From a virus: DNA of 64,000 nt. Of the stretch, positions 1,229 through 51,525 are shown in pieces; position 1 is the stretch's first letter; every line of letters begins with the position of its first letter. The notes under the pieces are model-generated. The model ran no database searches and had not been told where the DNA came from. It worked only from the letters and a program-made list of their open reading frames with translations. The stretch covers positions 1 to 64,000 of the IMG/VR virus record IMGVR_UViG_3300036760_000681; one strand, given 5' to 3'. The translations under genes were made by a program, and so were the position numbers.

Positions 1229-4047
1229 GATGCGCGCCGCCTGAACTGCCGCCGAATCCGGCCCTCTTCCGCCTTGGCCCGCTGCGCCGCCCGCGCGAGG
1301 TACTTCTCGAGCCCGGTGTCGCGGTTGTGAGGCTTCTCGGTCGGCTTCGGGAACGCCGCCCGGTCGCCGCGCGAGATCAGCGCCCGCTCCCGGACGAAGT
1401 TACCGTAGGCCACGGCGTCCGACTCGTTGGGGCTGCGGCGCAGGCGCTTCCTCACCTCCGCCTTCTCCTCGACGATGATCTTGCCCGGCGAGTTCTCGTA
1501 GCGGTGCGCGAGCAGCTCCTCGAAGAGCTTTTCGTTCTTCTCGCAGGCGATCCGGCCCATGCGGAAGTCCTCGCGGAGCAGCCACAACACCTGGCTGCGC
1601 AGGTTGTCAAACCGCTCCGGGCTGACGACTCTGGCCCCGGCCGGCTGCACCTGGCCCTCGGCGTCCATTTCCGTCGCTTCCCAGCGCACATCCTCGTCGA
1701 TCATGGGGATCGCCTTGGCGTTCCCGGCGATCGGGCGCAGGCGCTTCAGGCCCATGCGGCGCATCATCTTGAAGACCGGCCCGCCCATGCCGGCTGAGTC
1801 CATGCCGATGTGCCGGCTGTCGATGCGCGTCGCGGGGGCCATGACCTCTTCGACGATATCTTCGCCGAGCTGGGTGGCGTCCGGGCACTGGAACGACGTG
1901 ACCTTGACCATGCAGGCGCCGAGCCAGCGCGACACCGCGGCCAGGTCGCCGGACTCCGAGTTGGCGAGGTCCACGCCCATCGCGGGCGGGCCAGTGCGGT
2001 AGGCGGGGTCGTTGTAGCGTTCGGCCGCGGCGTCGAGCCAGCTCCGCTGGAAGAGCGAGTTCGCGGCCTGCGCGGGCGCGACGCCGCGCACCTGGGCCAT
2101 GAAGATCGGATTGTCCGGATTCCCGTCCGCGTCGGCAAGGTCGCGCACCACGCTCTCGCGCGAGCGGCCGCCGGGAATGACGTCGCGATTGCAGACCACG
2201 TTCGGGAAGTCGTAGCCCGAGATGCGGATGGCCTTGACCCAGGAGCGCTTACCGAACATCGCCAGCGTGTCGTGCTGGTGCTCGGGGTTTCCAAGGCCCA
2301 GAATCGGGTTGAATGAGCCCGTCGCCGTCTTGACGATCGTCTCGATGAGCGCCTGCTCGACGCCCGGGAACTCCTCGACGACCCACAGCATCTTCGGCTG
2401 GTGGAAACCCTTGAGGTTCTGGGCGATCTCTTCGTCGGCCCCGACCCCAGCGCCGAACGCGGTGGCCGCCCAGACTTCCTGCTCGCCCTCGCCATCCCGC
2501 ATCCGCAGGTTGCCGCTCAGAATCTGGGCGCGTGGGAACTGGCGCTTGAAGGTCGGCCACAGAGCGCCGATGTACTTCCACATGTTTTTCAGCAGCAGGT
2601 CGCGCTTGGGCGCGATCGACATGACGATCGAGTCTTCGTGGATGCCGAGGAACGCCAGGGTGCCGCAGGCGCCGAGGACGTAGCTATTGTGTGTCACGAT
2701 GAAGTCGCGTGTTACGTAGAGTTGGTCGGGCGCGGCGACCCGGATGCAGACACACGGCTCTGTTCCGGCCGGCGCGACATACCGGATGGTCCGCGCGGGG
2801 TGACGGCGCCATGCTTTGACCCGCGCAAGTTTACGCCGAAGGCGAAACGGTGCCGTTCCGTCTGGAAGTCGTACGGCGACATGATGCGCGTCTCGATGGC
2901 GCTTTCGTCGGAAGTAAGATGGAGTCGTGGTCGTGCTCGCGAGGCCGCCGAGGGACCGAACCAGGAATACGACCGCCTCGGCCAACGCGGGTGAGGTCGA
3001 ACAGAACGACACGATCCCGCGGCGGTCGATCGTTCCGTCGGTATCGAGAAGTCCCTGGAGTAGCGCCAAGCGCTGTGCGGACGAGGACCAAAGGTACTCG
3101 CTCGGAACACGCTTCTCGTGGCTGAGTTTCCCCATGAGATCGACATCGCGCAGTTTGACCGTGAGGGGATTCTGGTATCCTTTGCGCCCCACAAGTCCGT
3201 GGTCATACGCAATGCGGCGGCGTTTCACGGTCACGCCGCAGGTCGCGACAACGGACGCAACGATCTCGCTGTCCGCAGAACTGATCGTTGGGTACGAACC
3301 GCGAAAGCATCCGTCACCCAGTAGTAGTCCCATCAGGTACGGATCAAGAGGTAGCTCGCGTTCCGGATACTGGGCTGGAGACGCGATTGGAATCCTCCAG
3401 GATAACTCTCGGTTCAACCCTTCAAGTTCCCGGGTCGTCGCGACGCGCCAGCCCCGACGACGATACGCATCCTTCTTCGATTGAACCACCCAGAGGTGGT
3501 CTCCGCTCGCCCTTGTCTGCGCGCCGTCGGCAAATCCGACCTCAAAAACTGGTATGGTGCCCTGTGGAAACACGCCAATGACCGTTGTCGGCAACCCGTT
3601 GCTGCCCATGACGAGGTCGCCGATGCGTAGGTCTCCGATAGGCCGCCATCCGGTCGGCGTGAGGACGGGTTCGTCGATTGGCTGGGCTTTCGAGGTGGTC
3701 GTTCCCGCGCTCACCGCACACGACTTCCCCGCGAAGATGGTTTCGAGCGCGGTGACGAGTGGATCCGGGTCGCCGTCCCACAGGTGCGGCCGACCCTGGT
3801 TGCCGACGGCTTCGCACTGGGGGCAGTAGCAGCAGGCGTACTCGGGGTTCAGGCTCCAGCGGATCGTCGGCTCGGGAACGTTGAGCTTGTTGACGATCCA
3901 GCCGACCGGGTCATTCGCGTACTCGACGTGCGCCCGGATACTCGATGCCCAGACGCCAGCACGCTTGCGGCGTTCCAGCTCGGCCTGCGCCTGGAGCTTG
4001 ATGCGCTCCGATTCGGCGGCGCTGACGGTGGCTTGCGGGGCGGTCAC
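1225..4047 (-). CDS. terL: Terminase large subunit, intein-containing precursor
   Basis: ATP-driven DNA-packaging motor and headful/cohesive-end nuclease. I start at GTG 4047, whose GTGA overlaps the previous stop, giving 940 aa; an upstream ATG at 4149 would overlap the zinc-ribbon gene by over 100 nt. The P-loop reads GTTTSK at residues 115-120 and is completed by Ser455 after intein removal. Walker B is LWVVEE at about 554-559. The RNase H-like nuclease acidic residues are D693 (GVDLA), D750 (GMDSAG) and D877 (NESDAV). Residues 121-454 are an intein, so the mature protein would be about 606 aa, a normal TerL length. Splicing is inferred, not shown. Confidence 0.95.
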   Translation of the reverse strand: MTAPQATVSAAESERIKLQAQAELERRKRAGVWASSIRAHVEYANDPVGWIVNKLNVPEPTIRWSLNPEYACCYCPQCEAVGNQGRPHLWDGDPDPLVTALETIFAGKSCAVSAGTTTSKAQPIDEPVLTPTGWRPIGDLRIGDLVMGSNGLPTTVIGVFPQGTIPVFEVGFADGAQTRASGDHLWVVQSKKDAYRRRGWRVATTRELEGLNRELSWRIPIASPAQYPERELPLDPYLMGLLLGDGCFRGSYPTISSADSEIVASVVATCGVTVKRRRIAYDHGLVGRKGYQNPLTVKLRDVDLMGKLSHEKRVPSEYLWSSSAQRLALLQGLLDTDGTIDRRGIVSFCSTSPALAEAVVFLVRSLGGLASTTTTPSYFRRKRHRDAHHVAVRLPDGTAPFRLRRKLARVKAWRRHPARTIRYVAPAGTEPCVCIRVAAPDQLYVTRDFIVTHNSYVLGACGTLAFLGIHEDSIVMSIAPKRDLLLKNMWKYIGALWPTFKRQFPRAQILSGNLRMRDGEGEQEVWAATAFGAGVGADEEIAQNLKGFHQPKMLWVVEEFPGVEQALIETIVKTATGSFNPILGLGNPEHQHDTLAMFGKRSWVKAIRISGYDFPNVVCNRDVIPGGRSRESVVRDLADADGNPDNPIFMAQVRGVAPAQAANSLFQRSWLDAAAERYNDPAYRTGPPAMGVDLANSESGDLAAVSRWLGACMVKVTSFQCPDATQLGEDIVEEVMAPATRIDSRHIGMDSAGMGGPVFKMMRRMGLKRLRPIAGNAKAIPMIDEDVRWEATEMDAEGQVQPAGARVVSPERFDNLRSQVLWLLREDFRMGRIACEKNEKLFEELLAHRYENSPGKIIVEEKAEVRKRLRRSPNESDAVAYGNFVRERALISRGDRAAFPKPTEKPHNRDTGLEKYLARAAQRAKAEEGRIRRQFRRRAS
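2686..3687 (-). other. Intein with LAGLIDADG homing endonuclease inside TerL
   Basis: A 334-residue in-frame insertion begins AQPIDEPVLTPTGWRPIGDL (block A) directly after the P-loop lysine and ends VTHN, followed by Ser+1. Block B is TRASGDH. Two LAGLIDADG-type helices, LMGLLLGDG and LLQGLLDTDG, each keep an aspartate, so the endonuclease may be active. The first residue is Ala rather than Cys/Ser, as in class 2 inteins that skip the N-terminal acyl shift. Insertion at the ATP-binding loop matches the usual intein preference for catalytic motifs. Confidence 0.9.
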
Positions 4048-4214
4048 TTGTAGCGGGCGATCGCTCCGATGCCCTTCATGGCCTTCTTCGCGCCACACTT
4101 GGCGCACTTCATGGCGCCGGCCTTCATCGGCATCCCGCACTGGGCGCACTCACCGGCCTCGGTGTCCTTCATGCCCTTCTTCTCGCCCGGCTCGCCCTTT
4201 TCCCACGGCTTCAT
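4044..4214 (-). CDS. Zinc-ribbon protein, 56 aa
   Basis: Contains CAQC and CAKC pairs separated by 11 residues inside a Lys/Gly/Met-rich chain, a treble-clef-like zinc ribbon covering most of the protein. The ATG at 4214 overlaps the previous stop (ATGA) and its own stop overlaps the terminase GTG, so it is translationally wedged between them. Likely a nucleic-acid or protein-binding accessory factor; the partner is unknown. Confidence 0.7.
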   Translation of the reverse strand: MKPWEKGEPGEKKGMKDTEAGECAQCGMPMKAGAMKCAKCGAKKAMKGIGAIARYK

Positions 4215-14686: not shown

Positions 14687-15159
14687 TCAGTCGCGAGCAA
14701 CACAGGATACCGCCCTTCTCTTCCGGTAAGACCGCGCCGCCGTGTTGGCGCACACGCGGCATACCCGTCGGCCCACGCGCAATCTGCCGGGCTGAAGATT
14801 GTCCGCGGTAAGTTTGTGACTGCGCTTACAGTACGTCTGCGCAGCGCACGCTGACGTGACCGTATCTCCCCGGAGCACGTTTTCGCGAACGCTGACGGGT
14901 CGGACGTGGGCCGGGTTGCAACAGGCTTTCGCGCACCGTTCCGGCATCAGAAAATGGTCGAGGTGCATACCTGGCGGAACGGGACCGACCTCGCGCTCAT
15001 ACCTGACGCGATGCGCAAGGCGATTCACGCCGTCAGCGTCGCATAGCCCTTGCGGTTGATGGCCCCGACCCAGATATGACAGCCTGAACCGTCCTCGATC
15101 CAGCCGGGCGAGTCCTTCCGCCGAGGAGACGGGTTCCACGCCACGAACACGCCGGTCAC
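14687..15159 (-). pseudogene. HNH endonuclease gene split by a frameshift
   Basis: The N-terminal frame (GTG 15159, after AGGGG) gives WIEDGSGCHIWVGAINRKGY and stops at 15025. The HNH core continues in another frame: HRVRYEREVGPVPPG, LDHFLM, CCNPAHVRPV, then REN and a CxxC tail. The intact gene at 27930-28430 has the same order in one frame. The span is 473 nt (3n+2), consistent with one lost base near 15030. An ATG-started C-terminal fragment could still be made. Confidence 0.7.
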
Positions 15160-27127: not shown

Positions 27128-27933
27128 GTGCCCTCCGAACGGTCGGCCTTCGCTTCTTTCGCCTTCCGCACCCGCTCCAGCTCGGCCAGCACGCCGTCGT
27201 AGCGCGCGGCCGGCAGGTCGGTCAGCTTCTCGACGCCGAGCCATTTCATGAACCGCGCCTTGTTCGTGCCGTTGCTCTCCATCACCTCGGCGATGGTGTC
27301 AGCCTGGTCCTGGGTGACGCGGGGGCTGTGGTCGATCGCCACGCCGTCGGTGTCCGGCTCTCCGGTCGTGATTCCGAGGCTCTGGCACAGCGTCTTGCGC
27401 TGGCCGAACGTCATCGCGGCGCCCACTTTCTGGGCCGGGGACATGGCGCTCGGGTTGTCCACCGGCAGCACCGTGGACGACGGCACCGTGTGGCCGCTCC
27501 GGTGCCGGACGTGGCAGATCACGGTGAGATAGTTGCCCTCGATCTTCGTGTCCCACGAGTACGACAGTCCGTGCTTGTGCAGGTAGGGCGCGACGTGCTT
27601 CGCGACCACGTCCAACTCAGCGTACTTGTAACTCATCTCGGCGCCGGACTTCGTCGCGAACTTCGCCGTCTTGTTCTTCGGGGCGGGCGGACACTCTGCC
27701 TGGAACGCCGCCATCGCGTCGAAGAACTCACGGGCCGCATTGCGGTCTTCGACGTGCTCGCGCAGCGCGATCAACTCCTTCAGCTTGGCGATGTCGAGAT
27801 CCTTGTCCACGGCCATCTGGAGTAGCACGTCGATGTCGTCGGCGTTGTGCGTCAGGGCGCGGGGGGTCGGCGCCACCAGCGCCATCGGCGCCTCGACGAC
27901 GATTTCGTGGGGCTCTTGCTGCGTGTCGGTCAT
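27124..27933 (-). CDS. ERF-family single-strand annealing protein, 269 aa
   Basis: The ERF core is FFDAMAAFQAECPPAPKNKT, YKYAELDVVAKHVAPYL, then GLSYSW and later GAAMTFGQRKTLCQSLGI. It anneals complementary single strands during recombination and genome circularisation. The C-terminal 60 residues form a helical domain. Stop-start overlap with the YqaJ gene couples the pair. The start follows an HNH gene whose TGA overlaps. Confidence 0.9.
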   Translation of the reverse strand: MTDTQQEPHEIVVEAPMALVAPTPRALTHNADDIDVLLQMAVDKDLDIAKLKELIALREHVEDRNAAREFFDAMAAFQAECPPAPKNKTAKFATKSGAEMSYKYAELDVVAKHVAPYLHKHGLSYSWDTKIEGNYLTVICHVRHRSGHTVPSSTVLPVDNPSAMSPAQKVGAAMTFGQRKTLCQSLGITTGEPDTDGVAIDHSPRVTQDQADTIAEVMESNGTNKARFMKWLGVEKLTDLPAARYDGVLAELERVRKAKEAKADRSEGT

Positions 27934-28430
27934 GCTGCTGCCCTCCGGACCTTTCTGGCGTGGTATCCGGCTCGCGATGTGGCATTGTGACAGGTGCGGC
28001 AATACCGCTGGCCGCGGCGCAGGTTGGCCGGATCGAGGTTGTCGCCGGACAGCGAGTGGCCAGCGGGACAGTGCGTCTTCGCGGCACAGGCGGCGGCAAC
28101 CGAGTTGCCCCGCAGGGTATTTTCGCGGTGCGTGACGGGGCGAACGTGGGCCGTGTTGCAGCAAGGCCGGTTGTCGCAGAAAAAGTGGTCCATCTCCATG
28201 TCGGGCGGGACTGGCCCGACCTCGCGCTCGTACCGCAGGCGATGAACCAGGTGCTTGCGTCCATTGAACCAGACGATCCCATAGCCGTCCTTGTTGCGCT
28301 GTCCCTGCCAGATATGGCACCCGCGCTCGTCTTCGACCCACCCGAGGCGGTCGGAGCGACGGAGTGACCCTTCTGTTCCGGTCAACCTGACGAGCCCCGT
28401 GCCGGGGCCGCCCAACTCTTGATCCTTCAT
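27930..28430 (-). CDS. HNH homing endonuclease (intact), 166 aa
   Basis: Order: WVEDERGCHIWQGQRNKDGY, HRLRYEREVGPVPPD, MDHFFCD, CCNTAHVRPVTHREN, then CPAGH and CRTC zinc pairs. The HNH residues are H of MDHF, N of the AHV region and the downstream H. It lies in the recombination operon between exonuclease and ERF with ATGA overlaps, so it is inserted as a free-standing gene. The frameshifted gene at 14.7-15.2 kb is its close relative. Confidence 0.85.
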   Translation of the reverse strand: MKDQELGGPGTGLVRLTGTEGSLRRSDRLGWVEDERGCHIWQGQRNKDGYGIVWFNGRKHLVHRLRYEREVGPVPPDMEMDHFFCDNRPCCNTAHVRPVTHRENTLRGNSVAAACAAKTHCPAGHSLSGDNLDPANLRRGQRYCRTCHNATSRAGYHARKVRRAAA

Positions 28431-29294: not shown

Positions 29295-29741
29295 GCTGCG
29301 ATTCTCCGGTAGTAGTAGCGCAGGGCCGCGGCTCGGTTGCATTCACGACAAAACACTTGACGTGCAAGCGCCGCGCTTAAGGGTGTAGGTGTTCTCGTCG
29401 GAGCACGGGTGGCCGTTGCGACACTGACGCTTGTTCGCGTTGACGTTCCGGCCGCGCGCCACGCAATCCCTGACGTTCTGCTTCTGCGTTCCCACGTAGA
29501 GATGCGCTGGATTTACACACGCCGGATTGTCGCAGTGGTGGCACACCTGGGGGCCTTTTGGCACGGGTCCGATGAAGTGCTCATAGGAGAACCGATGCGC
29601 CCCGACCTTCTTCCATGTGCCACGCACGCGCACATGGAAGATGCCGTAACCGAAGGCTGTTTTCCCGCGCGTCCACCGCCAGCAACCAGGGCTCGGAGAC
29701 TTGGCGATCGCTCGCAGGAAACGGTCGATCGGCGGAACCAT
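29291..29741 (-). pseudogene. HNH endonuclease gene with C-terminal frameshift
   Basis: ATG 29741 reads GCWRWTRGKTAFGYGIF, VGAHRFSYEHFIGPVPKG, CHHCDNPACVNPAHLYVG and CRNGHPCSDENTY, a complete HNH core, then ends early at 29343. Without one base the frame continues RQVFCRECNRAAALRYYYRR to a TGA overlapping the next ATG. The core may still be active. The span is 451 nt (3n+1). Confidence 0.7.
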
Positions 29742-34679: not shown

Positions 34680-37600
34680 TCATCGGGCGAGCGCCGGAGC
34701 GCGGTACTTCTGGCGCTCGGCAACGCGCTTCAGTCGCAGCGTCCGCAGCCACAACTTCTGCTCGTCCGGCGTCCCCAGGCCGTAGATCTCCTCGGCCTCG
34801 TCGAGTGTCAGTTGCTTGAAGCGTCCCAGGGTAGGGTTCTCCCGGCTCTGGCGCCAGAGGTTCTGAGCCTGTACAGCGCTCATTTCGTGCGCCCGGACGG
34901 CGCGCTGGAGATCGGGTCGGCCCCGTGTCCCGCTGCGGAGCCCTTCGAGCATGTCGGTTCGGCGCTGTGCCGTGGCCTGTTCCTGCGGGGTGCGACCCTC
35001 CGCCCGACGCCCGCCGAGGTACTCCATCATGCGGTTCTGGGCGTCGGTGCGCACATCCTCCCGCCGGGCCGGCGTGACGCCGACGAAGGACGGCAGACCG
35101 CCCGCCACACCCCCGGTGCGGCGCTTGACCTCGGCCACGTTGCGGATGCCGATCGGTACGAATTGAGTACCGATGTACTTGGCAACCTGCTCCGCCTGCG
35201 TCACGATCGGGTCGTGTTCGTTGCGAATCTTGTCGCCGTAGTAGTCCTGGTTCTGGAGCATCCCCATAATCATCCCGATCTCGGGGTGCAACTTGTGCGT
35301 GACCGTGCCGATCGGATGGCGCGAGTAGGCGGCGATGTCCTTCATGTAACTCGGCAACTGCACCCGCTCGATGTTGCCTTCGCGGTCCACTTGCCCGGTC
35401 GGCGGATAGAAGTAGTCCTTCAGCGTCTCCGGCCCGTGGCCCGTGTAGAGATAGGTCATGGTAGCGCCCATCAGGCCGACCGTGATGGGCAAGGCGAGCA
35501 AGTAATCGCTGCGCGAGCTCGCCTGAAGCCGAGCTAGGTCGAGCGCGCCGCCGCCGAGTTCCCTGATCGTACCCAAATTCCAGCCGACGGCGCGCACCGA
35601 GGCCATCGACAAGTCCTTCAGGGTCCGATTCCAGAACAGGTTGTCGTAGACCATCTGGCCGAGCCGGTTGTCCACCGAGTCCCAGGAACGCTGAAGCACC
35701 GCCTTGGCCTCATCCACCGTGGCGGTCGCCGGCAACTTCTCCATCTCGTAGCGCGCCAGATCAAAGAAGACGCCGAGCTTCTGCCGCGGCACGGCATACT
35801 CCATGATCGGCCGCGCCAACTGCTCGAGCAGCGCGGGCCCGAACGCGCCCAGCGCCGCGCCGACCAAGGCGTTGCGTCCGCGATACTCTTCGTCTGAGGC
35901 GGCGCCGATGGCAGCGCCGGCGCCCGCGCGGACAGCCAGTGCCTTGAGTCCCTTGCCGGTGCGCACCGCTTCCAGGAGCGTATGACCGGCATCGGTGCGG
36001 TAGAAGGTGTCCATCTTCACCCGACCGCCGGCCAACTCAAGCGAGTTCACCGCCTCGGCAAGCGCCTGGTCTCCGGTGCCACGCAGGTAGGCCTTCAGCA
36101 ATCGGTCGCCGCGAATCAGGTTGGTGAGTGGCGCGACGGGAGTCGAGAGCGCCGTCACGGCCGCACGCAGCGGCTCGCCGCCACGCAGTTGCCGGATTCC
36201 GAGCGCCATGCGTGAAGTCGCCGCGTCCACGGAGGTAAAGCCCAAGTGGAACGCCGACAAGCCGAGTTGTGCCTGGTTCAGTGTGTTGCCGAGTCCCATG
36301 TAGGCGTCGTAGATCGGGTTGCCGCGCAGCCCCGGCGAGAGGTGGTTGTTCAGTACGTTCGCCACGGCCTCCGGCGCCCAGTATTCGCCCATGATCCGCC
36401 GGCCAGGCACCGTGACCTCGCCCGGCTCGATGTTCGCGCCCTCGGGCAAGGTCACCGCGCCCTCGCGGGGGCCGAACACGGTGGCGATGGAATCGTTGAT
36501 GCGAGCGTAGCCGTCGGGAATGGTCCCGCCGGCGCGGACGTAGCGCAGGAGCCCCTGCCCTTTCAGTTCCGCGAAGGTGCGCTGCGCCATCAGGTAGCGG
36601 CGCATCTCGCGGATCTTGAGCATCGTGAGGTCGAGCGGATTCGTCGTAACCGGCGTCAGGCCGGCCGCCACGCCGTCGGCCGTGGTCGGAATGGTCCGCT
36701 GCTTCAGGAACGCCCGCGAGCCCTGCAACGGCCGGCGACTGAGGATCTGCGCGACCACCCCGCCCGCCCGATCCGGCTGCTCCCAGATGTGCGGGAAGTA
36801 GTGCTCGATGAAGTTCTCGAGTTTGCCGGTGCCGAGTTGCTGTATCTGGACCCGCGCCCGGTCGAGTTCGACGCGAATGTGGTTGGCCGCCGGCTGCAAC
36901 GCCTTCGGCAGCGCGGCCACCTGGTTCGTCTCAATCGCGTCGATGAAGGCGTAGCGTTCGGTGTCGTGTAGCGGCTCGACGACCTGTCGGAACGTCCGCA
37001 GCGCCTCGGCCACGCGCTCTATGTCGTGCGCCTGAGAGCCGAGTTGCGCCCGGAGCGTCCGCGCGGCCATCGCCGCCTCGGGCGAACGCAACTGCGGGGC
37101 CAAGGTCTTGGCGATGCTCTGGCCGACCCGCGACACGCCGAAGCGTTCAACGCCGGCCCGGAGGATGCCCGGAGCGTTGGCGAGCCCGGCGCCGGCCAGC
37201 GCGCCCAAGGCCGCGCCGCGGAGCGGGTCATCCTTGTTCGTGACTGCCCCAACTGCCGCCCCACCCGCCGCGCCCGCGAGGGTGCGCAGCACGACCGGGT
37301 GCGCGCCGCCCGTCTCGTCCGGCGGCCCAGCGGACGATTGCTCGGCGTCGCCCAGAATCGACTTGATGCTCGCATCGGCCATGTGCGCGGGCGCTTCCCA
37401 GCGACCGATCCGGTAGCCGGTCTGCGTGTCGATCACGTCAGACTCGGCGGCGCGGAATAGTTCGCCGCGGGCGTCCTTGTAGAGTTCGTAACGCTGTCCG
37501 GCGGCGTTCGTGAAGAAGGCGACGTGGCCCTTCGACTTCACCGGCTCGGCGGTGGCCTGCGGCGTCAACTCCAGCGGCGTCTCGCCCGCCGGCGTCGTAC

Positions 37601-40600
37601 TCGGGCGCTCGGCAGCCAGTCGCGCCGTCTCCTCGGGCTGAATCTTCCCGGCCTTCAAACGCTCGGCGGGGCGCCCGGCGCTCTCGGGCAAGAGGCTCGT
37701 CTGTTCGCGCCCGATCCGGGCGTCCGGGCCGAGAAGATCGGTCTGGACGGCGAAGTTGTCGTGCGGGGCGCCGGCCTCGACGTTGGTCGCAGTCGGCTCC
37801 ATCGCCGCCAACTTCGCCTTTGCCTCGGCTAGTCCGGGCACCGTGAGGCCTTGACCGGAGGCAGCTTCCATCATGCGGACGCGAGCCGTGAGCCCTTCGA
37901 GGTCGTCGGGGAGCGGCGAGCGGACGGGTGGGGGCTCGCTGCGGGCGACGGCAGTGCCGGGGGCCGCCGCGGTAGCACGGTGTGCACGGCCAGCCTGTTC
38001 GGCCCCGAGCGCCATCATGTCGGCCTTCTCTTCGGCCGTCAACTTGCCAATCTTCGCGAGCGTGGCGCGCATCTCACTGATGTCGGCGTCCGTCAGTAGC
38101 CGGACGTTTACTTCCGGGTCGGACGGGAGGTAGATCGGCTCCTCATTCTGACCCTGGGTGCGCACTTCGATGCCAGCCTCGCGCGCCTGCTTGTTCACGC
38201 GGGCGACGGACAACTCGTCGAGCGCCACGCCGGGTGCCGGGGTGGGTGCGGCTGGTCTGCTCTCAGGGCGCACGACGGGCTCAACCGCCGGTTCCTGCAA
38301 GAGAGGGGCTCGGCCCACGTCCGGCTGGTTCCCGGTGGAACTCGGTACACCACCTGAACCGAAATCCTGAGCGACGACACGCTGACGGTCTCCCCAAAGC
38401 CTGTCGGGCACCTGTTTCGTGGCCTGGGCAATGGCCGTCGCTTCCTCTGAGGTGACGAACCTGCCCCGATCGGTGACGTAGCCGCTTTCCATGCCCTCAG
38501 GGATGAGGCCGTCGGGCTGGGCATCCTGCGCCTTGGTCATCGCCTCGACGTGAATCTGGCCCTCGTAAACGGTGCCATCGGCGAGTTTCACGGCGGCTGA
38601 CCTGATACGTTCGCCGCCAATCGGCGCGGACGTTTCAGGAACAGGCACCGGGGTCTGCGGTGCCCCGAATATGCCTTCCTGTGCGGGGTCGATGAACGGC
38701 GGGGCTACGGCTTCGGAGTTTTCGCCTGCTCCAGACTTTGCAGGTACAGCCGCGCCGCCCGCGCCGCTTGCTCCCAATCCACCGAGGTCGAGTTCGGCTC
38801 GGATGACGCCGGGGATTTGTTTGTGGGCATCGCGGACGATGTCGGCGAAATTGGCTTCTCCACTGGCGAATCTCCTCGCGCTGTCGGTTATCAGCGTACT
38901 CATGGGGCCACTGCGCGTATAGGAACGCTGGAACATCTCTTCCAGAAGCGCGGACTGTTCCGCCGTCGCCTTCGCGGCGTCCACGTCAACGAACGACTGT
39001 CCGATCTTGCCCACATCCTCAGCGTGCGTCCCGCGCGTGAGGTAGGTGGCGAGGCGCTTGTCGGCGAGAATCCGGTTTCTCAGGGCATCGACGATTTCCG
39101 CCTTGGGGCCGACCAAGGACAACCGTTCGGCCGCGTCGTTGAAGATGACGCCCTGGTCGGTATCGACCGGAGCAGCGACGGTCTCCTCGGCGCGGAACTG
39201 GCGGGCGATCTCTCGCATCTGGCCGTCCGTGTACTTCCGCTTCGTCTTCCGGGCGTAGGCAAGCGCCTGCCGCTGGAGGTCGGGGGCGCTCGCCAGCTCG
39301 TCGCCGATGGCGATGGCCCAACCTTCGGGCAGTTTGCCGCTCAACGCCTGCGCGTACAGGTCCGGCGTCAGGCCAGCGAGGGCACTCCCATCCCGGCCCA
39401 GGGCGTCCTTCACGTTCACGCCGAGGTCGGCAAGATCCTGCCGCGTCCGGCCCGTCTCGCGCATCCACGCCGCCATGTCGAACGGCGTTCCGTTGCCTTG
39501 GGCGATGTTGATGAGTGCGCCCGCCGCCTTGGCGTCCGCTGCCGTGGCCACCGGCAGCCGGAAGACGTTCGCGTGCGTCTGACCGAGCCGCTGGGAGTTG
39601 TTGGCGCGATTGTTCCCGTTCACGACGTATTCGTAGCCGTCGGCCGGGTCGATCCAAGTCGCCAGATTCTCGCTCGCGCCGACCAGTTGGTTGTACCGCG
39701 AGACGCCGGCCATCCGGTTCTTCTTGTCTCGACGCCACTGGAACCGCGCTTCGTCTACCCGGATGCCGTTCGGGTCGTACCAGGCATAGGGCCGCTGGAC
39801 GACGGGAAGCAGGCCTACATCCTCCACCCGGAACGGCGCGCCCGGCGCCCGGCTCGGCACCTCGGGCGTCGCCATGACCCGCGCCCGCTCGGCTTCGATC
39901 TGCTGGCGCTCGGCGAGGACGTCGGGGTTGAGACCCGGCTCGGCTGGCCTGGCTGGCGGCGCGCCCTCGGGCCGCTGGATGAAGGACGGAATCTCGACGG
40001 GGGTTTCGACCACTGTCGGCCCGTAGTCCGCCAGAACGCCCGATGCCGCCGTTTCGCCGGTTCTCTGGTTCCTCCAGAGGTCGCCGTCGGCCCGTTGCCA
40101 CCGACCACTGAGGGCCGGTGAGCGGGGCGCCTGCACGTCAACCGTCGTGCCGCGCGGCAAGTCGGCGAGGGCCACGGGTTCCTGTGGGGCCGCTGGACGC
40201 ACGGGCTCCACGGCGGAGGCCGATGGCCTGACGAGGGGCTCGGGGGCCGCGGCGGGGCGGGTAGGCTCACCACCGCCGCCACCGCCACCGCCTCGGAACA
40301 GGCGCGCAGCCAGACCCGGAACTTCCCCGGCCGCCCCGAAAGCGCCACCCATCTCGAGTCCGGCCCTCATGCCGCCCGTCATCCGTTCGGGAATCTGCTC
40401 TGGGCGTCCTTCGGCGACCGCTGAGCCCGTCTCGAAGGTGCCGAACTTGGCGGCGTCCGTCAGGGCGCGCTCGCCCACCCGACCGATCGCCCCAAGGACG
40501 CCCGGCACGCGACCAACGAAGCCCGGAGACTTGTTCAGAACGGATCCGCCTGGCACCGCCGAGGCGGCCGTCCACCCACCCGCCAACTCGGTGAGGCCGC

Positions 40601-41348
40601 CGATAGTGGAACCGACGGTGCGCATCGCACGGCCGATAGGCCCTTCGTTCTGACCCGCCGCTGCTTCTTGTTCGGCGACCGCTTCCTTGCCGTACGCCTC
40701 CCCGGCCAAGGTGCGGTCAATGGACTCGACGATCGGGGTTGCCAGCCTCCGACCAATGGCCGACACGATGCCTGATCCTGGAATAGCGTTCGCGATCGGC
40801 GACGCCTCCACGGCCTGTCCGGCGGCGACTGCGGCCCGCGCGGGGAGGCCCACAAACAGGTCGCGGACCCCGCGGACACCGCCGGCCACGAACCTGACTG
40901 GCAGGTTACCCGAGAGGCCTGTCTCGAACTCCCGTGCGCTGGCCTGTTCCGGCGTCTCGGCCACGGCGCCGACGTTGGGCATGGCCCGTGATGCAGCGGC
41001 CACTTCCGCGTTCCCGGTGAAGTTGCTGCGCGCGAGGTCGCGACGGCGCCGGAACTCGGCGCGCGCCGCCTCATCGGACAGGCCCGAGGCGACGAGTTGG
41101 CGAATCTGATCGCCGCCGTACGGCGTGGGATTCAAGTCAACCGAGGCGGCGTCGATGGTCGGACGCGCGACGGTCAGCGCGGGGAACGAGGCAACCTGCG
41201 TCGGGGCGATTTCCCGTACCGGACCCTTGCGGACGCGGGCGAGAACGGCGAGCGGATCCTCGTCTTCCGGCGACGGCACGGCGCTGCGCTGCCGCACCCG
41301 TCTCAGAACATCGAGCGGGGACTCTTCCTGGTAATTCTGAAACGCCAC
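34680..41348 (-). CDS. Giant internal virion / polyvalent protein, 2222 aa
   Basis: Probably ejected into the cell with the DNA. Low-complexity Pro/Ala linkers separate modules. About 505-760 is a ParB/DdrB-like domain (VSRYNQLVGASENLATWIDP, NGNNRANNSQRLGQ). Glycine-zipper hydrophobic segments lie near 1366 (AGGAAVGAV...GAALGALAGAG) and 1816 (AGAGAAIGAA...GAALGAFG), suited to membrane insertion. The region 1430-2220 is helical without known motifs (LENFIEHYFPHIWEQ). Such mosaics fit large polyvalent proteins or podovirus ejection proteins; no transglycosylase motif was found. Fully intact over 6.7 kb. Confidence 0.75.
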   Translation of the reverse strand: MAFQNYQEESPLDVLRRVRQRSAVPSPEDEDPLAVLARVRKGPVREIAPTQVASFPALTVARPTIDAASVDLNPTPYGGDQIRQLVASGLSDEAARAEFRRRRDLARSNFTGNAEVAAASRAMPNVGAVAETPEQASAREFETGLSGNLPVRFVAGGVRGVRDLFVGLPARAAVAAGQAVEASPIANAIPGSGIVSAIGRRLATPIVESIDRTLAGEAYGKEAVAEQEAAAGQNEGPIGRAMRTVGSTIGGLTELAGGWTAASAVPGGSVLNKSPGFVGRVPGVLGAIGRVGERALTDAAKFGTFETGSAVAEGRPEQIPERMTGGMRAGLEMGGAFGAAGEVPGLAARLFRGGGGGGGGEPTRPAAAPEPLVRPSASAVEPVRPAAPQEPVALADLPRGTTVDVQAPRSPALSGRWQRADGDLWRNQRTGETAASGVLADYGPTVVETPVEIPSFIQRPEGAPPARPAEPGLNPDVLAERQQIEAERARVMATPEVPSRAPGAPFRVEDVGLLPVVQRPYAWYDPNGIRVDEARFQWRRDKKNRMAGVSRYNQLVGASENLATWIDPADGYEYVVNGNNRANNSQRLGQTHANVFRLPVATAADAKAAGALINIAQGNGTPFDMAAWMRETGRTRQDLADLGVNVKDALGRDGSALAGLTPDLYAQALSGKLPEGWAIAIGDELASAPDLQRQALAYARKTKRKYTDGQMREIARQFRAEETVAAPVDTDQGVIFNDAAERLSLVGPKAEIVDALRNRILADKRLATYLTRGTHAEDVGKIGQSFVDVDAAKATAEQSALLEEMFQRSYTRSGPMSTLITDSARRFASGEANFADIVRDAHKQIPGVIRAELDLGGLGASGAGGAAVPAKSGAGENSEAVAPPFIDPAQEGIFGAPQTPVPVPETSAPIGGERIRSAAVKLADGTVYEGQIHVEAMTKAQDAQPDGLIPEGMESGYVTDRGRFVTSEEATAIAQATKQVPDRLWGDRQRVVAQDFGSGGVPSSTGNQPDVGRAPLLQEPAVEPVVRPESRPAAPTPAPGVALDELSVARVNKQAREAGIEVRTQGQNEEPIYLPSDPEVNVRLLTDADISEMRATLAKIGKLTAEEKADMMALGAEQAGRAHRATAAAPGTAVARSEPPPVRSPLPDDLEGLTARVRMMEAASGQGLTVPGLAEAKAKLAAMEPTATNVEAGAPHDNFAVQTDLLGPDARIGREQTSLLPESAGRPAERLKAGKIQPEETARLAAERPSTTPAGETPLELTPQATAEPVKSKGHVAFFTNAAGQRYELYKDARGELFRAAESDVIDTQTGYRIGRWEAPAHMADASIKSILGDAEQSSAGPPDETGGAHPVVLRTLAGAAGGAAVGAVTNKDDPLRGAALGALAGAGLANAPGILRAGVERFGVSRVGQSIAKTLAPQLRSPEAAMAARTLRAQLGSQAHDIERVAEALRTFRQVVEPLHDTERYAFIDAIETNQVAALPKALQPAANHIRVELDRARVQIQQLGTGKLENFIEHYFPHIWEQPDRAGGVVAQILSRRPLQGSRAFLKQRTIPTTADGVAAGLTPVTTNPLDLTMLKIREMRRYLMAQRTFAELKGQGLLRYVRAGGTIPDGYARINDSIATVFGPREGAVTLPEGANIEPGEVTVPGRRIMGEYWAPEAVANVLNNHLSPGLRGNPIYDAYMGLGNTLNQAQLGLSAFHLGFTSVDAATSRMALGIRQLRGGEPLRAAVTALSTPVAPLTNLIRGDRLLKAYLRGTGDQALAEAVNSLELAGGRVKMDTFYRTDAGHTLLEAVRTGKGLKALAVRAGAGAAIGAASDEEYRGRNALVGAALGAFGPALLEQLARPIMEYAVPRQKLGVFFDLARYEMEKLPATATVDEAKAVLQRSWDSVDNRLGQMVYDNLFWNRTLKDLSMASVRAVGWNLGTIRELGGGALDLARLQASSRSDYLLALPITVGLMGATMTYLYTGHGPETLKDYFYPPTGQVDREGNIERVQLPSYMKDIAAYSRHPIGTVTHKLHPEIGMIMGMLQNQDYYGDKIRNEHDPIVTQAEQVAKYIGTQFVPIGIRNVAEVKRRTGGVAGGLPSFVGVTPARREDVRTDAQNRMMEYLGGRRAEGRTPQEQATAQRRTDMLEGLRSGTRGRPDLQRAVRAHEMSAVQAQNLWRQSRENPTLGRFKQLTLDEAEEIYGLGTPDEQKLWLRTLRLKRVAERQKYRAPALAR

Positions 41349-49243: not shown

Positions 49244-50380
49244 TCATGGGGCGCTGAGAACGCCATTGGCGTCGGCGACGACGGTGCGAGAGCCGGAGCC
49301 AGCCAGGCTGGCCCAGGCCGGCGAGCCCGTGATAGCGGCCGGCATGGCCAAAGTACCGACGAGCGTTGTCGTGGTGCCAACCAGAGTCACCAGGACTGTT
49401 CCGCCAACCCTGAAGGTGTACCTGGGATTCGTACCAACCGCGTCCAAGGTGACGGCACCCGTTGACGAGTTCTTGAGGTCGAGATGGTTGCTGCCATCAT
49501 ACTGAAAGGCGGAATTAATTGCCCCCGTCGTCGTGACGACCAGCGCGTTTGTTGTCGAACCAGCGCCAATGGCTAGCGCGGTTAGCGTCCCGACGCTTGT
49601 GATCGCCGCCTGCGCGGCCCCTGTTACCGTGGCGGCGCTGCCCGAGACGTTCCCTGTGACGTTCATGACCTGCGCACTGGACCACGTCGGCGCGCCGGTG
49701 ATCGTCGCGCCCGTCAGCGTCAGCGTCTGGCCGCTGGTGACCGTGAGTCCCGCGTTGGCGGAGAGGAGGGCACTGAACGCCCCCGTCGTCGCCGTGAGTG
49801 CGCCCATCGAGACGGCGTTCGCAAATGTCGCCCCAGTCGCCGTAAGCGCCAGCACTCGCGTTGCGCCGACGACCAAACCGTAGGTTGAAGTAAACGTCAC
49901 ATCGTTGTTGCCACCGATGGTCACGCCGTAGGCGGTCAGGCTACCACTCAGCAGCCCGCCGCTGAATGTCCCTGTCGTCGCCGTGAGCGCGCCCATTGTG
50001 ATCGCGACACCCGTCGCTGTGAGCGTCCCCGTGATCGTCGGACTCGCCAGCGTCAGGCCCGCGAGCGTCGAGGCCCACTGCGGCACGGTGCCGCTGGACT
50101 GAAGCACGGTGTTCGCCGCGCCGATCGCCAGCGAGTCGAGACGCTTGACGCCCGTGACCCCGCCGGCAACGGCGTACAGGATGTCACCTGCCGTCAGCGC
50201 CGCCGAGTAATACTTGCCGTTGAGGTCCACCGCCGCCTTGCGCGCGGCCGTGGTCGGGCCGTTGAGCACGTCGAGCAGCAGCTTGTTCGCCGACGAGCGC
50301 GCGGATAAGAACGAAAGTGTATGCGGCTTATCTTCGTTCGAGCTCTGCTGTTGAGCGCTGATTCCGTAGAGTAATGCCAT
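49244..50380 (-). CDS. Tail fibre protein with Ala/Thr beta repeats, 378 aa
   Basis: From about residue 90, short repeats of the form TLTATGV, ALTATTGTFSG and SVGTLTALAIG build a beta-stranded shaft typical of trimeric phage fibres. The last 60 residues (YTFRVGGTVLVTLVGTTTTL) may be a tip. Immediately downstream of the plus-strand RHH-HNH cassette. Confidence 0.75.
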   Translation of the reverse strand: MALLYGISAQQQSSNEDKPHTLSFLSARSSANKLLLDVLNGPTTAARKAAVDLNGKYYSAALTAGDILYAVAGGVTGVKRLDSLAIGAANTVLQSSGTVPQWASTLAGLTLASPTITGTLTATGVAITMGALTATTGTFSGGLLSGSLTAYGVTIGGNNDVTFTSTYGLVVGATRVLALTATGATFANAVSMGALTATTGAFSALLSANAGLTVTSGQTLTLTGATITGAPTWSSAQVMNVTGNVSGSAATVTGAAQAAITSVGTLTALAIGAGSTTNALVVTTTGAINSAFQYDGSNHLDLKNSSTGAVTLDAVGTNPRYTFRVGGTVLVTLVGTTTTLVGTLAMPAAITGSPAWASLAGSGSRTVVADANGVLSAP

Positions 50381-50383
50381 CAG

Positions 50384-50418
50384 TTGACTCCTACCGCATA
50401 TTGCGGTAGATTCGTGGC
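50384..50418 (+). promoter_or_regulatory. Promoter-operator of the RHH-HNH cassette
   Basis: TTGACT (50384-50389), 17-nt spacer, TAGATT (50407-50412). A perfect inverted repeat CTACCGCA-TAT-TGCGGTAG (50391-50409) fills the spacer. The ATG of the RHH gene at 50419 is 7 nt after the -10, where transcription would start, predicting a leaderless message. Confidence 0.7.
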
Positions 50419-50556
50419 ATGAAGAAACTCGCCACTAGTTACCGTCTCAGCCCTGAGTGCCTTCGCCTGATCCGACAACTCGCGAAGAAGCTCGGGCTGT
50501 CCCAGTCGTCCGTTGTCGAGACCGCCGTCCGCGCGCTGTCCGAGAAGGCGCGCTAG
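50419..50556 (+). CDS. Ribbon-helix-helix repressor-like protein, 45 aa
   Basis: KKLATSYRLSPECLRLIRQL and GLSQSSVVETAVRALSEKA fit strand-helix-helix of CopG/Arc dimers. The gene lies directly behind a palindromic promoter it probably binds, and three bases before the HNH gene. It stands against the transcription of the whole late operon. Confidence 0.75.
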   Translation: MKKLATSYRLSPECLRLIRQLAKKLGLSQSSVVETAVRALSEKAR

Positions 50557-50559
50557 CCC

Positions 50560-51174
50560 GTGTTCGACCTCGACCGACTGCCCGAGCGGTTCCGTAGCAA
50601 GTTCGTTGTCAATCGAAAGACCGGATGTTGGGACTGGGCCGCCGGTAAAACGGCGGAGGGTTATGCCGCTTACTATGTCGGTGGAGGGAGAGCGGCTGCG
50701 CGACACGAATTGGGTCATAGATTTGTGTATGAATGCCTGGTGGGGAGAATCCCCAAAGGACTCACGCTGGACCACTTGTGCCGAAACAGGGCTTGCGTGA
50801 ATCCGAAGCATCTTGAACCCGTGACCCATCGCGTCAATATCCTCCGAGGTACTGGTGCCTCGGCCAGGAACGCTCGCAAGAAGCAGTGCAAGTACGGACA
50901 CCCCTTCGTCGGGAAGAACCTCGTGTTCGACAGTTATGGACGCCGTCACTGTCGAATCTGCGACCGTCGGGCCAATGCGAAGCGTGGCGCGAGGTATCGA
51001 GGAAGCGCGCTCGGCGTCGCGACGCGCAAGGCGTACCATGCCCGCACAGTTCTCCGCCGACGCAGGTATCACCAGCGGTATCGTGCGAAGAATCTCGCCC
51101 GCATACGGGCCTACAAGCGCGACTGGCAGCGCGCTCATCGCGCACGCCAGAAGGCCAAGTCGAAGCAACCGTAG
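50560..51174 (+). CDS. HNH homing endonuclease, 204 aa
   Basis: Core: RKTGCWDWAAGKTAEGYAAY, LGHRFVYECLVGRIPKG, LDHLCRNRACVNPKHLEPVT and HRVNILRG; then CKYGHPF and CRICDRR zinc pairs and a basic tail of about 60 residues. Start GTG 50560. Only distantly like the two minus-strand HNH groups. With the RHH gene it forms a probable mobile unit inserted between late genes. Confidence 0.88.
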   Translation: MFDLDRLPERFRSKFVVNRKTGCWDWAAGKTAEGYAAYYVGGGRAAARHELGHRFVYECLVGRIPKGLTLDHLCRNRACVNPKHLEPVTHRVNILRGTGASARNARKKQCKYGHPFVGKNLVFDSYGRRHCRICDRRANAKRGARYRGSALGVATRKAYHARTVLRRRRYHQRYRAKNLARIRAYKRDWQRAHRARQKAKSKQP

Positions 51175-51189
51175 CGTCACGTCAGCCTC

Positions 51190-51525
51190 CTACTTGGTCA
51201 GCAACTTGACGACCCGAGCCGCGCCCTCGGCAGACCCGGACACCAGTTTGATGTACGGGAACGGAGCTAGGGCGTCCGCTTCGGCGCCCGAGAGCCCGTA
51301 GCCACGGCTCGCCGCGACGGCGACGGACACGGCAGTTCCATCGCTGTCGTAGATCGGCACGAACGTTCCCGTGGCAGTGTCACAGCCAGTGAACGTGATG
51401 GTTGTGCCGGTCAATGCGGCCGGGGTGATAAGGCCGACGATGAACTTCCCGCCGACACGCAACGCCTGAGACGTAGTACCGCCGCTGGCGATGTTGGCGC
51501 TCTGGGACACGGGCTTCGGGTACAT
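51190..51525 (-). CDS. Small structural protein, 111 aa
   Basis: Beta-rich (GGKFIVGLITPAALTGTTIT, TFVPIYDSDGTAVSV) and similar in shape to small phage proteins encoded with fibre or decoration genes. Just left of a break caused by the RHH-HNH insertion. Confidence 0.6.
   Translation of the reverse strand: MYPKPVSQSANIASGGTTSQALRVGGKFIVGLITPAALTGTTITFTGCDTATGTFVPIYDSDGTAVSVAVAASRGYGLSGAEADALAPFPYIKLVSGSAEGAARVVKLLTK

Follow-up and report, generated by a model that had tools for sequence, protein, structure and literature searches.

A putative mobile homing-nuclease cassette with a CopG-like autorepressor in a phage late operon

How would a nuclease gene that faces head-on into the late genes of a phage be expressed, and how might it have come to lie there? 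The question is raised by two plus-strand genes in a 64-kb stretch of DNA (hereafter the window), out of a 67,061-base virus record, in which the late genes called between 34.7 and 63.9 kb all lie on the minus strand. A first-pass annotation had described the pair as a ribbon-helix-helix (RHH) gene and an HNH endonuclease gene set against about 30 kb of late genes, with a palindrome filling the promoter spacer; upon re-reading, its coordinates proved exact throughout, the TTGACT-N17-TAGATT promoter with its perfect 8+8 palindrome was confirmed to the base, and the head-on arrangement held for every called gene of that region. We consider it probable, from comparison with related loci, that the two genes form a mobile cassette for a homing nuclease, controlled by a CopG-like autorepressor that acts on the palindrome; the promoter would be open when the cassette enters a naive cell, and closed later.

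Layout of the cassette and its two proteins

The cassette consists of the following features:

50384–50389, plus strand: -35 hexamer TTGACT, identified by sequence reading, largely within the spacer between Shine-Dalgarno and start codon of the minus-strand late gene B
50391–50409: perfect 8+3+8 palindrome CTACCGCA-TAT-TGCGGTAG, the predicted RHH operator
50407–50412, plus strand: -10 hexamer TAGATT, with 17 nt between it and the -35 and 6 nt between it and the ATG, a leaderless geometry
50419–50556, plus strand: RHH gene for a 45-aa CopG-type ribbon-helix-helix protein, a predicted autorepressor (from profiles and a model)
50560–51174, plus strand: HNH gene for a 204-aa HNH_3 homing-type endonuclease, with a GTG start (from profiles and catalytic residues)

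The right arm of the palindrome shares the first three bases (TAG) of the -10 hexamer, and the ATG at 50419, which has no Shine-Dalgarno (SD) sequence, stands 6 nt past the -10, a reading of spacing only; the cassette transcript is predicted to start at about 50419. By itself, the match to the two hexamers is weak, with 3 instances found versus 1.3 expected in 11 kb; the combination of promoter, 6–7 nt and ATG occurs nowhere else in the 64 kb on either strand, and the window contains just 5 perfect 8+8 palindromes with a loop of 3–5, that of the cassette occurring once. The RHH stop is separated from the HNH GTG by 3 nt. Read on the minus strand, the palindrome adjoins the SD of gene B, the late gene with its start at 50380, a feature which the first-pass annotation had missed.

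The RHH protein scored 20.2 bits against the Pfam profile RHH_1 (PF01402), slightly below the cut-off of 20.5, and matched PHROG 3887 (1.4e-7); when a profile of 13 RHH relatives was compared with the PDB, only CopG of pMV158, likewise 45 aa long, was matched (E 5e-4). The predicted model (pLDDT 92.8) has helices at residues 12–25 and 29–44, and is of a monomer; the N-terminal strand forms only in the dimer. A structure search with this model placed CopG-DNA complexes at the top, followed by Arc and antitoxin RHH domains, with E-values that were weak throughout, as is expected at 45 residues. Judged by profile and model, the protein appears to be a minimal RHH fold of ~45 aa, closest to CopG of pMV158.

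The HNH protein matched PF13392 (41.3 bits), PHROG 826 (7.9e-41) and the PADLOC homing-endonuclease model ('HEase'); its catalytic residues H72, N81 and H84 are invariant across 12 relatives, and the C/H metal-binding residues seen in the relatives are retained. Three more HNH relatives lie on the minus strand of the window (14735–15028, 27876–28334 and 29388–29723), none of them with an RHH gene; the match at 27876 contains one internal TGA.

Empty and filled alleles of the insertion site

The cassette is bordered by two late genes and a short repeated motif:

51190–51525, minus strand: flanking late gene A, 111 aa, whose homologues flank an empty site in the phage L086 and the cassette in the phage L097
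49244–50380, minus strand: flanking late gene B, 378 aa, tail-fibre-like, with N-terminal homologues in L086 and L097
50388–50394: first flanking copy of CTCCTAC, read from the sequence; on the minus strand GTAGGAG, the SD of gene B
51187–51193: second flanking copy of CTCCTAC, read from the sequence; the stop codon TAG plus GAG of gene A

Because CTCCTAC, comprising stop codon and SD, is present at both borders, joining the flanks of the cassette gives a compact operon junction between genes A and B, AAG-TAG-GAG-TCAACTG-ATG; the insertion keeps the stop of gene A and the SD of gene B intact. The promoter thus spans the edge of the cassette, the -35 hexamer lying mostly within the gene B leader.

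The first-pass annotation had taken the cassette for an insertable unit, and a relative that lacks it was found, with a precise empty site: in L086 (capsid 78% and portal 63% identical), the homologues of genes A and B lie 30 nt apart, and no RHH or HNH relative is present in the L086 record. In L097, a more distant phage (capsid 57% and portal 55% identical), the homologues of the same two genes enclose an RHH gene and, directly after it, an HNH_3 gene (52 bits), both head-on to their neighbours; the L097 and window HNH proteins are 42% identical over the full length. The comparison covers three phages, with one precise site that is empty in L086 and filled in the window and in L097. A search for relatives by way of gene B returned the same three phages only, and the major capsid protein of the window had no match among 50,697 deposited phage records. 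The late region of the window also holds a minus-strand ORF of 2222 aa (34680–41348).

Position of the predicted operator and partner genes among RHH relatives

Relatives were searched from two seeds, the RHH of the window and one from a plasmid, giving a sample of ~15 distinct RHH loci; the scans of IMG/VR and of genomes used exact degenerate patterns, by which divergent members are missed. When 14 RHH relatives were aligned on the -10 hexamer, some of these hexamers being assigned by spacing or geometry, 73 of 126 pairs (58%) were complementary at axis -7, versus 12–33% at 27 other axes; ten RHH-free leaderless HNH promoters gave 24 of 90 (27%) at axis -7. Swapping half-sites between loci left 58.3 ± 4.0 pairs versus the 73 observed (1/5000 shuffles, or 17/5000 when the window was left out). 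As swapped half-sites retain this many pairs, part of the dyad signal is a shared consensus (approximately GTAnnGC...GCnnTAC), and part is locus-specific pairing. Scoring of dyads at free positions yielded z = 4.4 in the RHH set versus 0.1 in the RHH-free set; the dyads at L098, L099, L096 and L125 are weak. The proposal that the palindrome is the RHH operator gains from this comparison, in that the dyad axis is fixed across the relatives, which at the level of sequence is the symmetric operator in its own promoter that marks a CopG-type regulator, and which would tie the palindrome to the RHH gene and not to gene B. All but one of the 14 relatives lack an SD leader, the exception being L100, and the distance from -10 to start codon is exactly 6 nt in 10 of these 13; a leaderless-type promoter is thereby supported, in which, as suggested earlier, the start codon would fall where transcription is predicted to begin.

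A blind scan of IMG/VR with the pattern TTGACNNGTANNGCNNNNNGCNNTACNNTN{6,7}ATG returned nine contigs with four distinct sequences, namely the known RHH of L095, one new RHH (six contigs) and two other genes (L129 and L130), which are not RHH starts. In these last two, operator-like palindromes with leaderless geometry stand before the non-RHH genes (L129, 1634–1671; L130, 1616–1654, reverse complement).

Leaderless starts appear, from a count of -10 hexamers 5–7 nt before a plausible start, to be enriched in free-standing HNH genes, with 9 of 63 non-redundant HNH_3 loci versus 10 of 364 control ORFs; as a rule for HNH_3 genes they were rejected, given only 9/63. A spacer palindrome was also considered as a general feature of antisense HNH genes, and the idea was dropped, the RHH-free leaderless HNH promoters being without a dyad at -7. 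Short palindromes between -35 and -10 (GTTGCGCAAC and CCACTT-GCGT-AAGTGG) were noted at two RHH-free HNH genes with leaderless-type promoters (L011, 3940–3980, and L056, 3930–3974); the HNH gene of L011 is antisense and adjoins the SD of the next minus-strand gene.

The genes that follow the RHH belong to several classes. An HNH_3 gene follows at L097; GIY-YIG genes with NUMOD3 at L090 (after a 71-aa ORF), L093 and L125 (the last identified by inspection of its translation); T5orf172/MUG113, a known phage homing nuclease of GIY-YIG type (PMC10448857), at L098 and L099; and TnpB at L091 (the same as L092), L094 and L095. At L101 an IS110-like transposase lies 360 nt away, and non-nuclease or unclear genes follow at L087 (a plasmid transfer region), L096, L100, L124 (DNA methylase) and L126. 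RHH and partner appear mostly to be translationally coupled, stop and start overlapping or lying at most 3 nt apart in the close pairs. Grouping of the RHHs by similarity does not follow partner class, in a 45-aa tree of weak support; that of the window shares 61% identity with a GIY-YIG-linked RHH and 49% with the other HNH-linked RHH. Because some relatives precede non-nuclease genes, the RHH is best read from these loci as a portable autoregulator which is not tied to HNH, and control of a nuclease would be one use among others (L087, L096, L100, L124 and L126 representing the rest).

All five RHH-HNH and RHH-GIY-YIG cassettes (the window, L097, L090, L093 and L125) are oriented against their flanking genes, at three distinct sites, two of which are beside portal-like or terminase genes; the T5orf172 cassettes are not opposed to theirs. 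Among 100 upstream ORFs of ~80 HNH-relative loci, no RHH was found except that of the window, and apparent RHH matches of 67% and 50% in the upstream-ORF alignment were rejected as out-of-frame junk. Searching phage records with the RHHs by tblastn gave no matches, as expected because the RHH is just 45 aa; a search of 396 genomes of the phylum yielded one further RHH, ahead of a DNA methylase. The first-pass annotation had held that an HNH gene joined to its own RHH repressor is not known as a standard arrangement; no earlier report was found in the open-access literature, but the arrangement is not unique, as a second RHH-HNH pair was found in L097, and RHHs also stand before GIY-YIG, T5orf172 and TnpB genes.

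Alternative readings, proposed mechanism and known systems

The palindrome might instead be a 5' hairpin of the gene B late mRNA on the minus strand, the plus-strand promoter fit being a coincidence; the minus-strand stem adjoins the gene B SD (TAGGAG) and is predicted to reach -16.6 kcal/mol in 56 nt. Yet in RHH relatives of other gene contexts the dyad keeps its position with respect to the -10, the palindrome of L097 is 14 nt away from the gene B SD, and the cassette-free junction of L086 is without such a palindrome, so that we regard a hairpin as very unlikely. A toxin-antitoxin or defence system, in which the RHH would be the antitoxin and the HNH the toxin, is highly improbable. An operon that begins with an RHH gene and has a palindromic operator is the usual layout for type II antitoxins, and the relative L095 weakly matches RelB/DinJ; however, the 45-aa RHH as modelled stops at the second helix and lacks a toxin-binding tail, the HNH matches homing families including 'HEase' and not a known toxin family, empty and filled alleles occur at one precise site, and the same type of RHH lies ahead of unrelated nucleases.

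Homing nucleases often have swappable DNA-binding domains (PMC10448857), and RHHs are coupled to nucleases of several classes; the RHH could accordingly be a separate DNA-binding subunit, serving to target or tether the nuclease and not mainly to repress, a role made distinctly unlikely by the presence of RHHs before RNA-guided TnpB and non-nuclease genes and by the position of the conserved site in the RHH's own promoter. That the window and L097 share the site, with an HNH divergence (42%) similar to that of other genes, would also suit a regulator-nuclease pair that is old and has been inherited vertically in this phage group, lost in L086 and without recent homing. We find such a history rather unlikely in view of the precise empty junction, the HNH_3 family, and the RHHs of the window and L097, which are not nearest relatives (49%; the window's is 61% identical to that of a GIY-YIG partner).

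The reading that we prefer, a homing cassette under its own RHH repressor, would operate as follows. When phage DNA enters a repressor-free cell, the promoter would be open and a burst of RHH and HNH would ensue, the repressor being made from an mRNA that begins at or beside its ATG, and the HNH homing endonuclease from the translationally coupled second gene. HNH would then cut uninserted, co-infecting phage genomes at the gene A/gene B junction, and recombination would fill the cut junction with the cassette. As RHH accumulates, its dimers would occupy the palindrome, which lies between the -35 and -10 hexamers, and so switch the operon off; late transcription running head-on through the cassette may be a second brake. 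The first-pass annotation had supposed a unit that stays silent until copied and would thereby spare late transcription; release on entry into a repressor-free cell, of the kind shown for CopG of pMV158, appears to fit better than silence until copying.

The CopG-RepB operon of pMV158/pLS1, in which RepB is a nicking initiator, is alike in that a 45-aa RHH comes first in the operon and a symmetric element lies in its own promoter. It differs in its partner, the cassettes pairing with homing nucleases (HNH, GIY-YIG) or with TnpB, in the location of the cassette site in phage late operons, and in its promoter, copG having an SD whereas the cassette promoter is of leaderless type; the identity is ~28%. 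CopG autorepresses copG-repB, and rapid establishment in a recipient cell requires that this repression be relieved (PMC5717011).

How free-standing homing nucleases are kept from harming their phage and can still spread is known mostly from T4. There, I-TevI binds its promoter and thereby keeps its own expression down, and the intergenic, free-standing homing gene segD lies antisense to late genes that are essential (PMC2988022). Nuclease expression would in the cassette, as for I-TevI, be restrained by repression at its own promoter; I-TevI represses itself, whereas the cassette has a separate RHH as predicted repressor, and segD is without a recognised promoter, whereas the cassette has one. 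The C proteins of type II restriction-modification systems are, as is predicted of the RHH, small DNA-binding regulators of nuclease genes; they have palindromic operators at the promoter and a leaderless transcript (PMC4824078), but are helix-turn-helix activator-repressors; the modelled fold of the RHH is not helix-turn-helix, and the cassette has no methylase partner and late structural-type genes as neighbours. In type V-K CRISPR-associated transposons (CASTs), the RHH proteins Arc_1 and Arc_2 (53–72 aa) lie beside cas12k, CvkR and cas12k are leaderless, and palindrome-binding repression has been shown for CvkR (PMC9938897). These regulators (CvkR, Arc_1 and Arc_2) differ in their divergent orientation, their transposon setting and the lack of a shared operon with a homing nuclease. 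Cluster O mycobacteriophages have HNH genes between late genes, present or absent by genome, 1–3 bp past the stop codon (PMC4351075); they differ in that no regulator gene is reported and there is no head-on RHH operon.

A broader proposal, on which we are evenly divided, is that a CopG-like RHH with a leaderless palindromic promoter constitutes a portable controller, attached repeatedly to unrelated mobile nucleases (HNH, GIY-YIG, T5orf172 and TnpB), which gives a self-limiting burst in a naive cell and repression where a copy is held. In the open-access literature, no earlier description was found of homing nucleases or TnpB under the control of an RHH protein, and nothing relevant joined RHH/CopG with TnpB, homing endonuclease or GIY-YIG except the CAST regulators. 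If true, a separate, swappable repressor would be a common solution for several unrelated nuclease classes, RNA-guided TnpB included. Sharp predictions would follow, namely one operator position, release on entry, and cross-immunity between elements with matching operators; the layout would also allow such cassettes to be recognised from their DNA sequence, and would supply a small, regulated promoter-repressor pair for laboratory work.

Some RHH loci have further features of their own. One phage (L091/L094, also L092/L122) carries two RHH-TnpB cassettes ~4 kb apart. In L101, an Acidobacteria MAG, ~360 nt of short degenerate tandem repeats (3117–3473) lie between the RHH and the IS110-like transposase. 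On plasmid pSTJ2 (L087), an RHH gene with the same promoter-operator layout (3998–4138) lies in a conjugation gene cluster and overlaps an unknown 240-aa gene.
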